Below, one piece after another: positions 59,901 to 64,000 of a stretch of 64,000 nucleotides of DNA; the first letter of the stretch is position 1; every line of letters starts with the position of its first letter. The translations under genes were made by a program, and so were the position numbers. The notes under the pieces were generated by a model. The model made no database searches and was not told the DNA's origin. It was given only the letters and a program-made list of their open reading frames with translations. Origin of the DNA: Pseudorhizobium endolithicum (GTDB taxonomy: Bacteria > Pseudomonadota > Alphaproteobacteria > Rhizobiales > Rhizobiaceae); contig NZ_CABFWF030000001.1 of NCBI RefSeq assembly GCF_902153245.2, positions 310,001-374,000 of the forward strand, in the 5' to 3' direction.

Positions 59901-60365
59901 ATCGGCCTCGATACCGATTTCGCCTTGGCCTTCGCCAAGTCGCAACTGGGTGCGGGCGTCGAACTCCCCCGGGAAGGCACGGTGTTCGTGTCCGTCCGCG
60001 ATGAAGACAAGCAGCGGGTCCTGCCGGCAATCCGCATCCTGACCGAAATCGGCTTCAAGGTCCTCGCCACCGGCGGCACCCAGCGCTTCCTTGCCGAACA
60101 GGGCATTGCCGCGACGAAGATCAACAAGGTTCTGGAAGGCCGTCCGCACATCGAGGATGCGATCCGCAACCGGCAGGTCCAGCTCGTCATCAACACGACG
60201 GACGGCAACAAGGCGATCTCGGATTCGAAGTCGCTGCGCCGCGCGACGCTGATGCAGAAGGTCCCCTACTACACGACCATGGCCGGTGCCGAAGCCGCCG
60301 CCATGGCGATCCGGGCGCTCAAGGCCGGAAATCTCGAGGTTCGGCCGCTGCAGAGTTATTTCTGA
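56880..60365 (+). CDS. carB: Carbamoyl phosphate synthetase large subunit CarB
   Basis: A 1161-residue synthetase that makes carbamoyl phosphate from bicarbonate, ATP and ammonia from CarA. Two homologous ATP-grasp halves are seen ([39 protein letters not shown]), the interhalf [20 protein letters not shown], and the C-terminal MGS-like regulatory domain ([20 protein letters not shown]) that in enterobacteria binds UMP/ornithine. It is about 90 residues longer than the E. coli enzyme; an insert of roughly 45-50 residues around 155-205 ([20 protein letters not shown]...) in the first ATP-grasp domain explains much of this and is known in alphaproteobacteria. Confidence 0.97.
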
Positions 60366-60393
60366 GCCGCTGCCGGAAACCCGCGCCTGCATC

Positions 60394-60424
60394 AAGGGAG
60401 GCCCGCACCCGCGGCGCCTCCCTT
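60394..60424 (+). terminator. Terminator of carB
   Basis: AAGGGAGGC pairs perfectly with GCCTCCCTT over 13 bases (with a small inner CCGC/GCGG stem), 28 bases after the carB stop; a short TGTTTGG follows. Confidence 0.7.
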
Positions 60425-60465
60425 CATGTTTGGAACGTACCGGAACGGACGACTTGACCTCCGGC

Positions 60466-60490
60466 GGAACTGACGGCCCGCGGAAACGTT
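60466..60490 (+). promoter_or_regulatory. EcfG-type promoter of the DUF6766 gene
   Basis: GGAAC, a 16-base spacer and CGTT match the EcfG consensus exactly, 66 bases before the start of the membrane protein gene and beyond the carB terminator. Confidence 0.75.
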
Positions 60491-60555
60491 CCAGAGCCCA
60501 CCACCACCGGTCATCACGAGCCGGTGAGGTCACGGCTTCACAGCGGGTTTCGAAC

Positions 60556-61215
60556 ATGACCTTCTTGCGCAACAACGGTCTCAGCATCGCCCTTCTCCTG
60601 GCAACGCTCCTCACGCTCATAGGCATGCTCTTCAGCGGCTGGCACGTCGGCCAGGAGGAAGCCTTGCAGCACGGCGACCTCCCACCCCCTCTTTGGGAAT
60701 ATGCAACCTCGGGCGATTTCCTGTCCGCCCTCTTCGAAAACTGGGAAAGCGAATTCCTGCAGATGGCCATGTATGTCTGCCTGACCGCCTTTCTCTACCA
60801 GAAAGGCTCGGCGGAATCGAAGGATCCGGAAACACCGCATGAGGAGGTCGATGAGGATCCGGTACTCCATAAAGACGACCCGGAAGCCCCGTGGCCCGTG
60901 CGGCAGGGGCCAGTGATCCGCGGCCTCTATTCCTATTCGCTCGGCATCGTCCTCGCCCTGCTCTTCGTCGCCTCCTTCATCCTCCACCTCGTCAACAGCG
61001 CAGCGGCTGCCAGCGAGGAGGCCGTGCGCCACAATCAGCCGGCGACGACCGTGGCCGAGCATCTCGTTTCGGCGCAGTTCTGGTTCGAATCCTTCCAGAA
61101 CTGGCAGTCCGAGTTTCTGTCGACCCTCGTTCTGGTCGTCCTGTCGATCTTCCTGCGCTTCCGGGGGTCGCCGGAATCGAAGCCTGTCGCCGCCAGCTAT
61201 GGAAAGACCGGCTAG
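60556..61215 (+). CDS. DUF6766-like membrane protein
   Basis: A 219-residue membrane protein of two similar halves. Each half has GLSIALLLATLLTLIGMLFS-like or YSYSLGIVLALLFVASFILH helices, then an FENWESEFLQM / FQNWQSEFLSTLVL segment, then a helix and a cytosolic SAESKDPE / SPESKP tail. The repeated NWxSEFLxxxxxVxL motif is the family hallmark (DUF6766); function unknown. It is placed under the general stress response by its EcfG-type promoter. Start ATG 60556 has no strong ribosome site. Confidence 0.75.
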   Translation: MTFLRNNGLSIALLLATLLTLIGMLFSGWHVGQEEALQHGDLPPPLWEYATSGDFLSALFENWESEFLQMAMYVCLTAFLYQKGSAESKDPETPHEEVDEDPVLHKDDPEAPWPVRQGPVIRGLYSYSLGIVLALLFVASFILHLVNSAAAASEEAVRHNQPATTVAEHLVSAQFWFESFQNWQSEFLSTLVLVVLSIFLRFRGSPESKPVAASYGKTG

Positions 61216-61216
61216 C

Positions 61217-62707
61217 TCACGGAGAGGGTGAGCTTGCTGAATCGATTGATGCGAAACTCGCGACAAGCCGTTGAATGGATTCCATATCCTTTTGGAAGCG
61301 CCTGAGCTCCGCCGCTTTGCGCGCAGCATCCGGAATCCGGAGAAGATAGGAGGGATGCACCGTCACGAACAGCGTCCGCCCGTCCGGAAAGGGAAGTGGT
61401 CGGCTGCGCACGTCCTCGATCCGCTCCTTCTGATCGGTCAGGGAATAGAGCGCCGTCGCGCCCATTGCTACGATCAGCTTCGGCTTCACCAGCTCGATCT
61501 CCCGGGTCAGCCACCAGCGGCACTGCTGGATCTCGCTCTGGTTCGGCTTCTGGTGGATGCGTCGCTTGCCGCGCGGCTCATACTTGAAGTGCTTGACGGC
61601 ATTGGTCACGTAGAGCGCTTGGCGGTCAAGCCCTGCGTGACGGATCGCCTCGTTAAACACTTGTCCCGCGGGACCTACAAACGGCACGCCCGCTAGGTCC
61701 TCCTGATCGCCCGGCTGCTCGCCGACGATCATGACCTTCGCCTCCGCCGGCCCCTCCCCGAACACCGTCTGCGTGGCCCGGCAATGCAGGTCGCAGCGTG
61801 TGCAATGGCGCGCTTCCTCCTTCAGCGCCGCGAGCGTTCCCGCCGACAAAGGTTCCGGCTGCGGCTGACGTGCGGCAACCGCCTGGAGCCGGTGATGGAA
61901 CGGTTGCGGCTCGCTGGCGGCCCGCTCCGCCATCTGCAAGACGCTTGATTCCGCCCCGGCGATCAGTTGCGGAATGAGCTCGGCTTCCGGCAGGTTCCTC
62001 CAGTATTTCTTCGGCATCTCCGCCGTCATGGCCTTCACCTTCAACCGCGCCGGGTTGAAGATCGAGGCATAGTAGGTCCGCCAGAGATCGTCGGTGTCAT
62101 CCTGGAGATCAGGCTTTTCCGCCGGCTCCTCCGTCGTCCGCAGCGTCCGGCCGTCCCAGGAGGCGGATCCCTTCGGCGTGGCGATCAGCCAGTCCATGTC
62201 GTTGAACCGGCGCTGGAAGAAGGGTGCTACCCGCTCGACAATGTAATGATCCGGCTCGAACCAGGCCACGAACTGCCGGCGCGCCGCCGTATCGGGTGGC
62301 AACCGCAGTTCCTTGAAGCGCACAAAGGCCGTCATCTTGTGATAGTCGCGCCCCACCGACTTCGCCATCTGCCGTGCCGCCACGACATCCGCATCGGCGG
62401 CCATCGAAAGCAGCTGGCGATTGCGGCTCAGCCGGAAAAGGAGCCGGTAGAGCAGCGAAAACCGCGCCGGATCGCTGTGGCAGACCACGGTAGCGGCGAG
62501 CTTCAGGAAATCGGAAGAAACGGTGATGGAACCGTCGTGAGGCAATGCCGGCGGAAGATCGGCGGGCGCTGCTGCGAAAAGGCTTCTTTCCTGCTCCAAG
62601 GTGCGCCAGAGGATCTGCTCCGGCCGCACCCCACCCTGCAGCAGTGCCCGCGCAGCATCCCGCCACTCCTCCAGATCTCCCCTGCCCTTCAACGTGATCG
62701 TGTACAT
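61217..62707 (-). CDS. udgX: TIGR03915-like domain fused to UdgX uracil-DNA binding protein
   Basis: A 496-residue fusion. Residues 1-~250 (YTITLKGRGDLEEWRDAARA to FNPARLKVK) match the TIGR03915/DUF4130 type of putative DNA metabolism domain. Residues ~285-480 are a family-4-like uracil-DNA glycosylase of the UdgX kind: an iron-sulfur cluster (ARHCTRCDLHCRATQ), GEQPGDQEDLAGVPFVGPAG, and the R-loop KRRIHQKPN. In mycobacterial UdgX the equivalent histidine (here H385) bonds covalently to uracil sites. The ATG at 62707 overlaps the radical SAM stop by one base (TGATG), so translation is coupled. The operon carries a LexA box. Confidence 0.88.
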   Translation of the reverse strand: MYTITLKGRGDLEEWRDAARALLQGGVRPEQILWRTLEQERSLFAAAPADLPPALPHDGSITVSSDFLKLAATVVCHSDPARFSLLYRLLFRLSRNRQLLSMAADADVVAARQMAKSVGRDYHKMTAFVRFKELRLPPDTAARRQFVAWFEPDHYIVERVAPFFQRRFNDMDWLIATPKGSASWDGRTLRTTEEPAEKPDLQDDTDDLWRTYYASIFNPARLKVKAMTAEMPKKYWRNLPEAELIPQLIAGAESSVLQMAERAASEPQPFHHRLQAVAARQPQPEPLSAGTLAALKEEARHCTRCDLHCRATQTVFGEGPAEAKVMIVGEQPGDQEDLAGVPFVGPAGQVFNEAIRHAGLDRQALYVTNAVKHFKYEPRGKRRIHQKPNQSEIQQCRWWLTREIELVKPKLIVAMGATALYSLTDQKERIEDVRSRPLPFPDGRTLFVTVHPSYLLRIPDAARKAAELRRFQKDMESIQRLVASFASIDSASSPSP

Positions 62708-63939
62708 CAAAGCAGCGACAGTTGTTCCGGCTTCGGCTCGAACATCGCCCGCAGGTCCGGCCGGTCAACCAGCCGGTGCGGCGTCCACCCTTCCGCCGTG
62801 ATGAACGGCTGAACCTTGCGCAACGACACACCGAGCCGCTTCAGGTCGTCGAGCCGGAGCCGGGAGAAGCGGCGCGCCGCGATGATCGCCTTTACCGTCT
62901 TGGTGCCGAGCCCCGGCACCCGAAGCAGCATTTCCCGCTCCGCCCGGTTGATGTCCACGGGAAACCGCTCCCGATGCCGGAGCGCCCAGGCAAGCTTCGG
63001 GTCAAGGTCCAGATCGAGCATTCCGTCCGGCCGCGCCGACGTAATCTCGCCGATCTCGAAGCCGTAGAAGCGGTAAAGCCAATCCGCCTGGTAGAGCCGA
63101 TGCTCACGCATCAGCGGCGGCTTGATGAGCGGCAGGTTCTTCGACGAATCTGGGATCGGGCTGAAGGCCGAATAGTAGACGCGCTTGAGGCCGTAGCTGC
63201 CATAGAGGCGTGCGCTCGTGCCGAGGATGGTCGCGTCATTGGCTCCGTCCGCGCCGACGATCATCTGCGTGCTCTGGCCGGCCGGCGCGAACCTCCGCAC
63301 CCGCTTCGTCTGCATGGTCGGCTCGCTCATCTCCTCGATCTTGAGGCGCAACTCCCCCATCGACCGGCGGATGCTGTCCGGCCGCTTTTCAGGCGCATAG
63401 CGGGTGATGCCGGCATCGGTCGGCAGTTCGATGTTGAGCGACAGGCGGTCAGCGTAAAGCCCCGCCTCCTCGATGAGATGCGGCGACGCTTCGGGAATCG
63501 ACTTGAGATGGATATAGCCGCGGAAGTTATGGGTGGTGCGCAACTCCCGCGCGATCCGCACCATTTCCTCCATCGTGTGGTCGGAGGAGCGGATGATGCC
63601 GGAGGACAGGAAAAGGCCCTCGATATAGTTGCGGCGGTAAAATTCCAGCGTCAGCCAGATCACCTCCTCCACCGAAAAACGCGCTCGTTCGACATTGCTG
63701 GAAGATCGGTTGATGCAATAGGCGCAGTCGTAGATACAGAAGTTCGTGAGCAGGATCTTCAGGAGCGAGATGCACCGCCCGTCCGGGGCATATGCATGAC
63801 AGATGCCGGAGCCTTCGGTAGAGCCGAGGCCTCCCGACGCGCCGGAATGGCGGCGGGCGGTACCGCTCGAGGCGCAGGACGCATCGTATTTCGCAGCATC
63901 GGACAGGATGGCCAGGCGTTCTTTGAGCGACTTCTTCAT
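62707..63939 (-). CDS. Radical SAM DNA modification/repair protein (TIGR03916 type)
   Basis: About 410 residues. A radical SAM iron-sulfur motif C-x3-C-x2-C in LTNFCIYDCAYCINRSSSN (C68, C72, C75), a barrel with GLFLSSGIIRSSDHTMEEMV and KSIPEASPHLIEEAGLYADR, then a C-terminal helix-hairpin-helix-like region (LLRVPGLGTKTVKAIIAARR) that could bind DNA. It is the usual partner of UdgX fusions; the reaction is unknown. An ATG at 63939 is preferred over the GTG at 63951 because the latter lies inside the LexA box. Together with UdgX it forms a two-gene operon. Confidence 0.88.
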   Translation of the reverse strand: MKKSLKERLAILSDAAKYDASCASSGTARRHSGASGGLGSTEGSGICHAYAPDGRCISLLKILLTNFCIYDCAYCINRSSSNVERARFSVEEVIWLTLEFYRRNYIEGLFLSSGIIRSSDHTMEEMVRIARELRTTHNFRGYIHLKSIPEASPHLIEEAGLYADRLSLNIELPTDAGITRYAPEKRPDSIRRSMGELRLKIEEMSEPTMQTKRVRRFAPAGQSTQMIVGADGANDATILGTSARLYGSYGLKRVYYSAFSPIPDSSKNLPLIKPPLMREHRLYQADWLYRFYGFEIGEITSARPDGMLDLDLDPKLAWALRHRERFPVDINRAEREMLLRVPGLGTKTVKAIIAARRFSRLRLDDLKRLGVSLRKVQPFITAEGWTPHRLVDRPDLRAMFEPKPEQLSLL

Positions 63940-63945
63940 TAGCTT

Positions 63946-63960
63946 GTTCACTATATGTTC
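63946..63960 (-). promoter_or_regulatory. LexA (SOS) box of the radical SAM-UdgX operon
   Basis: GTTCACTATATGTTC is an exact match to the alphaproteobacterial LexA operator GTTC-N7-GTTC. Read on the coding strand it is GAAC-N7-GAAC and ends six bases before the ATG at 63939. Confidence 0.8.
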
Positions 63961-64000
63961 CGGCTCCGCCAGTCAACCATTCGCGTGTCGACGAAGAGAA

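Follow-up and report, generated by a model that had tools for sequence, protein, structure and literature searches.

A LexA-box-linked radical SAM-DUF4130 unit with an optional UdgX tail in Pseudorhizobium endolithicum and related bacteria

Introduction

NCBIfam links three protein families, namely the radical SAM family TIGR03916, which we take to be COG4277, the DUF4130 family TIGR03915, and the UdgX-type uracil-DNA glycosylase (UDG) family TIGR03914. All three are found in a two-gene unit, with both genes on the minus strand, at positions 61217-63960 of a 64,000-nucleotide stretch of the Pseudorhizobium endolithicum genome (contig NZ_CABFWF030000001.1, positions 310,001 to 374,000; hereafter the window). 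This two-gene unit is probably switched on by DNA damage.

Systems of this kind have been described from several angles (the papers are cited here from excerpts of their text). In 2013, DUF4130 was described as a predicted mutagenesis-related enzyme and tied to UDGs and to radical SAM proteins of the SplB-like kind (PMC3765255). LexA-type control was later inferred for a COG1573-COG4277 operon in Bacteroidetes, in a study that published two further LexA-type motifs for that group, reported SOS regulation of SplB in several species, and referred to previous work in which a UDG repair system of Alphaproteobacteria and Verrucomicrobia had been reported as SOS-regulated (PMC8565304). Desiccation up-regulates such a gene in Acinetobacter (PMC13130816). 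UdgX, which is defined by the motifs GEQPG, a KRRIH loop with the histidine, and HPS, bonds covalently to DNA through His109; it serves as a tool for uracil, and its role in physiology is called largely unknown (PMC10359453). In the open-access literature, as far as the excerpts found under UdgX, TIGR, DUF4130 and COG4277 terms extend, we found no biochemical study of the radical SAM enzyme.

The window locus shares all three domains and their pairing with the NCBIfam linked families and scores far over their cut-offs; no difference was found, and the locus is an ordinary member. It likewise resembles the COG1573-COG4277 SOS operon in being a two-gene unit with a UDG under predicted LexA-type control. 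The excerpts describe that operon as UDG-based base excision repair (PMC8565304), whereas the radical SAM-DUF4130 core studied here persists in genomes that gave no UdgX or family-4 UDG match. The initial annotation of the window had called the proposed joint pathway largely undescribed, which was too strong, as the NCBIfam names link the families and both the 2013 association and the LexA control are in print (PMC3765255, PMC8565304). The locus is a well-conserved, probable SOS unit, yet a member of a catalogued family whose SOS control has already been published. The reading that we prefer, with a probability of roughly 0.6, is that of a LexA-controlled DNA-damage unit whose working core consists of the radical SAM protein and DUF4130, with UdgX as an accessory.

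Gene layout and the LexA box

The first gene of the unit (62707..63939, minus strand; ATG at 63939, stop at 62709-62707) encodes a radical SAM protein that matches the TIGR03916 profile with 584.5 bits, compared to a curated cut-off of 343.5. Its closest named relatives among the best 80 of 588 confirmed stretches, from Endobacterium cereale and a "Rhizobiales bacterium", are 90% identical. The second gene (61217..62707, minus strand; ATG at 62707, stop at 61219-61217) encodes a DUF4130-UdgX fusion, as seen from NCBIfam and Pfam matches, with scores of 219.8 bits for TIGR03915 (cut-off 112.25), 137.4 for Pfam DUF4130 (27) and 344.1 for TIGR03914 (189.95). The stop codon of the first gene and the start codon of the second overlap by one base in the sequence TGATG. 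Altogether, Pfam recognizes Radical_SAM, helix-hairpin-helix (below its gathering score), DUF4130 and UDG domains in the unit. A perfect LexA (SOS) box, reading GAAC-N7-GAAC on the coding strand (GTTCACTATATGTTC, also given as GAACATATAGTGAAC), occupies positions 63946..63960 on the minus strand and ends 6 bases before the ATG; an alternative GTG start is possible at 63951, within this box.

These features largely follow the initial annotation, which had proposed a radical SAM protein with a DNA-binding-like C-terminus, translationally coupled by a 1-base TGATG overlap to a TIGR03915-UdgX fusion with H385 as the UdgX histidine, and a perfect GTTC-N7-GTTC LexA box by the start codon. All three families indeed score over the NCBIfam curated cut-offs, the one-base overlap is seen at 62707, the box is found six bases ahead of the ATG, and the KRRIH loop of UdgX ends at residue 385. 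A helix-hairpin-helix region was also found at the C-terminus of the radical SAM protein, though with 26.0 bits it stays below the Pfam gathering score of 27.

The number of boxes in the window is near chance, with four occurrences of GTTC-N7-GTTC where 1.71 are expected and 9 of 100 shuffled sequences reaching four, so that the motif by itself proves little. We therefore rejected the window box count as evidence on its own; the box owes its significance to its place and to its conservation. A possible -35 element, TTGACT, is located at 63971..63976 (minus strand), in which case the box would cover the -10 region. In 44 of 143 loci, TTGAC lies 16-18 bases ahead of where the box begins; a sigma-70 consensus scan, which retrieved no promoter match, counts against such an element. 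In the P. endolithicum genome, the gene matching lexA over cut-off (G000:C13) has a perfect box of its own. An imuA-like gene (46.5 bits, cut-off 150) carries GAACATAAAGTGAAC two bases ahead of its first start codon.

Conservation of the box in Alphaproteobacteria

A perfect box was present between positions -250 and +30 in 46 of 47 loci of the same class, as compared to 3 of 604 control windows of the same length taken from the same loci. This set comprises 30 loci of relatives, all of which have the box, and 17 class-wide loci, of which 16 do (the single miss is L032); the loci come from related genomes, with 29 of the 30 in the first set belonging to one genus, and are not independent events. 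Of 80 loci from named records, 75 have the perfect box, whereas in control windows it turned up in 29 of 3328; the five box-less loci were L157, L171 and three xanthomonads. The genome-contig scan represents the best 80 of 588 confirmed stretches, and the sample is therefore biased to Alphaproteobacteria.

Overall, 166 of 169 distinct alphaproteobacterial loci have a perfect box (counting as alphaproteobacterial L211 and L225, which are named to phylum only). The box thus proved conserved before orthologous operons, as the initial annotation had demanded of an SOS-controlled unit. It is found in 150 of the 151 alphaproteobacterial loci counted as UdgX-fused and in 10 of the 12 that are complete and truly unfused. 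These 12 were kept from 18 first counted as unfused, after dropping two loci at contig ends (L047, L206), two whose frames run off (L127, L223), one whose genome has UdgX directly behind DUF4130 (L036), and one with a UdgX piece in another frame (L076). Some boxes stand in the opposite orientation or at other distances from the gene, so that their conservation is not simple sequence inertia; this also speaks against a by-product of coding constraint.

Operators in other lineages

Loci from other classes of the phylum, which were assigned, as were those called xanthomonad-like, by kinship codes and by likeness to the named loci L213, L231 and L232, carry a different box. Of these 29 loci (L086-L113 and L125), 19 have an exact CTGT-N8-ACAG just upstream, and 24 have it with at most one mismatch, while the controls gave 4 of 1383 exact matches and 29 of 1383 with at most one mismatch. 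The five loci without this box are L109, L125, and the xanthomonad-like L090, L102 and L113.

In six xanthomonad or xanthomonad-like loci (L090, L102 with one mismatch, L113, L213, L231 and L232) we found an upstream palindrome, GTCTCA-N5-TGAGAC. Two genomes (G427 and G705) contain exactly three exact copies each, which precede this operon, uvrA, and a DEAH-box helicase gene (TIGR03817-like); in G622 the exact palindrome appears before uvrA, the DEAH-box helicase gene and a small open reading frame. Three genomes without a TIGR03916 match had a single exact site with no recognized gene behind it (G423) or no site (G371 and G605). A control palindrome read backwards had zero matches in all six genomes. 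When one mismatch was allowed, 16, 9 and 12 sites were found in G427, G705 and G622, respectively; two shared sites of this kind that we inspected lie ahead of imuA (checked in G622 and G705) and of mraZ (checked in G622). The palindrome sites are documented in L244 and L246 (of G705 and G427), L242, L247-L251, L295 and L297. We considered and rejected DinG as the identity of the xanthomonad helicase, as the family search gives a TIGR03817-like match, under cut-off for a 500-residue piece. The xanthomonad-like palindrome may perhaps mark a small damage regulon.

The palindrome bears on the possibility that the unit assists SOS mutagenesis (ImuA-ImuB-DnaE2) as an accessory that traps uracil or abasic sites, whether the error-prone polymerase makes these or runs into them. 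It has been suggested that UDGs belonging to the SOS response address misincorporation by error-prone polymerases (PMC8565304), and the xanthomonad-like operon has its palindrome in common with uvrA and, with one mismatch, imuA. The one-mismatch palindrome is also found ahead of mraZ, among 9-16 sites per genome, and this explanation gives no role to the constant part of the unit, the radical SAM enzyme; we consider it quite unlikely.

Across lineages, then, the sequences ahead of the operon comprise at least two known LexA-type operators and, as a third element, a palindrome of the damage type. The SOS control proposed in the initial annotation thus gains in silico support both from a box conservation far above chance and from the different LexA-type boxes that appear in different lineages.

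A constant core and an optional UdgX

To survey the families, the same 398 Pseudomonadota genomes were searched for TIGR03916 and TIGR03915. TIGR03916 was over cut-off in 84 genomes and TIGR03915 in 87, and all 84 of the former are among the latter. UdgX was over the TIGR03914 cut-off in 78 genomes, some of which lack the radical SAM enzyme. All three families also gave matches in a control genome, that of Caulobacter vibrioides. At the level of loci, the 208 distinct radical SAM loci divide into 164 with a fused UdgX, 38 with a complete, unfused DUF4130 (one of which, L076, has a UdgX piece in another frame), three in which the frame runs off the locus, and three in which no DUF4130 was found, with two of these located at contig ends and the third being the divergent copy L150.

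The loop histidine is kept in 153 of the 164 fused UdgX domains (by a loose pattern), and UdgX looks degraded by eye in two operons, L111 and L199. In a quick tree of 152 proteins, built without L150, L047, L152 and near-duplicates and also without loci that lack DUF4130 and five in which the UdgX state was uncertain, the state of UdgX changes at least 13 times and the box type at least 6 times. In eight genomes (G365, G516, G562, G584, G607, G630, G660 and G684) the radical SAM-DUF4130 pair comes with a CTGT-N8-ACAG box, which has one mismatch in five of the eight, and no TIGR03914 match was obtained (E≤0.001) in a search that scores the best candidates only and could therefore miss a weak relative; a family-4 UDG match was likewise not found in them. 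More generally, CTGT-N8-ACAG with at most one mismatch is kept in 16 of 17 unfused loci of the other classes. Judged from gene content, the radical SAM-DUF4130 pair is the constant core and UdgX its optional tail, and the predicted SOS control follows the core and not UdgX; the evidence for the latter is the addition of the present work.

The same results speak to an idea raised in the initial annotation, by which the radical SAM enzyme would resolve or process the covalent UdgX-DNA adduct. This idea would fit the tight coupling and the fusion seen in the window, as well as the covalent bond that UdgX is reported, in the excerpted text, to form with DNA through His109 (PMC10359453), and it can also draw on the box-less loci being commoner among unfused than among fused alphaproteobacterial copies (2/12 and 1/151, respectively). 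We do not favour it, because loci and genomes that lack UdgX still have the pair and a LexA-type box: 38 of the 208 loci are complete and unfused (including L076 with its out-of-frame UdgX piece), the box is kept in 10/12 unfused alphaproteobacterial and 16/17 unfused other-class loci, and eight pair-bearing genomes gave no TIGR03914 match. UdgX is, in addition, present where the radical enzyme is absent, and degraded in L111 and L199. These observations make the adduct idea highly improbable.

Several observations weigh against a LexA-controlled radical SAM-DUF4130 core. Of the three alphaproteobacterial loci that miss the box, two have no fused UdgX, so that misses amount to 2/12 in unfused and 1/151 in fused loci. 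Three genomes (G526, G542 and G608, with loci L285, L283 and L284, respectively) have DUF4130 without a TIGR03916 match, which in each case has a perfect GAAC/GTTC-N7 box close by and in two of the three a fused UdgX, which suggests that DUF4130 may work alone. No known box was seen in L109 and L125, nor in the copies from Bacteroidota, Bacillota and Acinetobacter (L146-L149 and L151), a few loci judged by eye and without statistics. In the P. endolithicum genome, recA has no perfect box in the stretch examined, and GAACNTNNNNNGAAC occurs 32 times genome-wide on both strands, compared to 11 for its backwards control, so that a lone match means little. Finally, the proposed DNA substrate leans on a helix-hairpin-helix region that scores below the Pfam gathering threshold.

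With the radical SAM-DUF4130 core as the preferred reading, the question moves from UdgX to the pair as the part that SOS control appears to follow, and strains that have the pair and lack UdgX would allow a clean genetic test of the core.

The radical SAM protein and a possible mechanism

The radical SAM protein carries the CX3CX2C cluster motif (63715..63738, minus strand) and, at its C-terminus, a DNA-binding-type helix-hairpin-helix region (62866..63003, minus strand). Matches of this region to ComEA and RuvA-type segments, found by comparing the profile with sequences from the PDB, favour DNA as the substrate. Upstream of the cluster motif, an N-terminal stretch (63772..63876, minus strand) contains three cysteines (residues 21, 46 and 55 of the protein, P0001) that are conserved in sequence comparison; a regular-expression search retrieved the three motifs together in 196 of 208 loci. 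These cysteines may form a second, auxiliary Fe-S site, a point that the structure model does not settle: the AlphaFold model has a mean predicted local distance difference test (pLDDT) score of 85.9, with low confidence at residues 21-43. A divergent TIGR03916 relative with 36% identity, encoded on a Gemmatirosa kalamazoonensis plasmid (L150:3992-5149), is without the N-terminal cysteines and has no DUF4130 in its stretch.

Among the best 50 of 77 Foldseek matches of the model (E≤0.001), the list is led by MgmA, HydE, PFL-activating enzyme, HydG, viperin, biotin synthase and LIAS, and also includes RimO and MiaB. The three conserved cysteines beside the canonical cluster and the presence of LIAS, RimO and MiaB among these matches would fit an enzyme of modification rather than repair, which uses an extra Fe-S cluster to add, under stress, a group such as sulfur or methyl to DNA or RNA. 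In some radical SAM enzymes, the insertion of sulfur depends on an auxiliary cluster. This alternative seems doubtful to us, as the fold matches are those of the general superfamily, the model is of low confidence at residues 21-43, and the predicted SOS control and the link to a uracil-DNA protein point to damage.

Spore photoproduct lyase (SplB) belongs to the radical SAM superfamily, as does the window protein. It was absent from the 26 PDB-sequence matches to the family profile (E≤1) and from the best 50 of 77 Foldseek matches, and we therefore rejected it as the closest relative of the window protein. To our knowledge, SplB has no C-terminal helix-hairpin-helix. UV damage is a classic SOS trigger, which would suit a direct reversal of pyrimidine photoproducts in the manner of SplB, with UdgX removing uracil from deaminated dimers afterwards; the associated radical SAM proteins were called SplB-like in the excerpted text (PMC3765255). 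Given the lack of SplB in the profile and fold matches just mentioned, such a reaction appears unlikely.

The unit is most likely an SOS-induced enzyme for processing DNA lesions, to which UdgX would add an accessory uracil trap. In such a scheme, suggested by the box and its conservation, LexA would occupy the site beside the start codon until RecA filaments trigger its cleavage, upon which both coupled genes would be made. The radical SAM protein might then dock on DNA through its helix-hairpin-helix end and apply the 5'-deoxyadenosyl radical to a damaged nucleotide, with DUF4130 as its putative partner, either for recognition or for a second step. When fused, UdgX could take hold of uracil close to where repair takes place, or of the abasic site that results; this activity is known for mycobacterial UdgX, and its link to the core is our suggestion. 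The pair would thus point to radical-based DNA repair chemistry, for which the excerpted open-access literature yielded no substrate in print. A bolder proposal, which we hold only tentatively and consider improbable, is that the pair constitutes an undescribed class of DNA repair enzyme, docked by its helix-hairpin-helix. With the help of a second Fe-S site, it would act on a damaged base in place, by conversion or reversal, and leave a uracil or abasic site to be capped by the optional UdgX, forming a widespread SOS arm under lineage-specific LexA-type operators.

The DUF4130-UdgX fusion protein

The fusion protein consists of the TIGR03915/DUF4130 domain (61982..62683, minus strand), assigned by NCBIfam and Pfam, for which sequence search found no solved relative, and a UdgX-type UDG domain (TIGR03914; 61277..61978, minus strand), assigned by NCBIfam, by alignment with UdgX and by fold matches. 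The latter contains GEQPG at residue 329, the KRRIH loop (61553..61567, minus strand) with the predicted crosslinking His385, which was recognized by its motif and by alignment with Mycobacterium smegmatis UdgX, and the HPS motif as HPSYLLR at residue 451. It is 43-45% identical to M. smegmatis UdgX (PDB 6AIL and others), with TM-scores of 0.84-0.91 normalised to the target, and differs from it in being joined to the C-terminal side of DUF4130, in a gene under a LexA box. The AlphaFold model of the fusion has a mean pLDDT of 90.1 and a predicted TM-score of just 0.57, which leaves the arrangement of the domains uncertain.

The P. endolithicum genome also holds a second, stand-alone UdgX with GEQPG and KRRIH (L282; G000:C12:201980-202558). 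The 3-kb stretch around it has one perfect box near position 2860, about 1 kb ahead of the UdgX frame.

Neighbouring and inserted genes

At positions 60286-61219 of the window, a convergent frame that resembles a membrane protein ends at 61215, with a single base between it and the stop codon at 61217 that closes the UdgX fusion. A clustering of neighbouring frames of at least 120 residues in 140 loci, setting aside the core and one cluster of minus-strand frames centred on it, produced largest clusters that occur in only 11 and 10 loci, typically kilobases off and on both strands.

We also considered a phage or defence origin. For both proteins, PADLOC models gave 0 families at E≤0.01. Ten matches came from phage collections: eight records labelled "Bacteriophage sp.", all obtained from human faecal samples, and two that represent one Acinetobacter "phage". 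In the latter, a 240-kb record (L151), the pair is flanked by glyS, glyQ and aidB, and the record resembles host chromosome. Scans of viral contigs retrieved two contigs, the same ones in both scans. With no PADLOC model and with host-type genes flanking the pair in the Acinetobacter record inspected, this origin was rejected.

In several loci another gene separates the two core genes. A hemerythrin-domain gene takes this place, by Pfam, in L036, L116, L211 and L217, and L130 has a fifth, related hemerythrin-type frame; the cases of L116 and L130 are loose, because a beta-helix gene sits there too. We suggest that such an insert would suit an oxygen-sensitive radical enzyme, perhaps through oxygen or iron handling. 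Two other loci have a gene of the cytidine/dCMP-deaminase family between the core genes (L128:3357-3851 and L191:7850-8488), which, as a further suggestion, would suit uracil-related chemistry.

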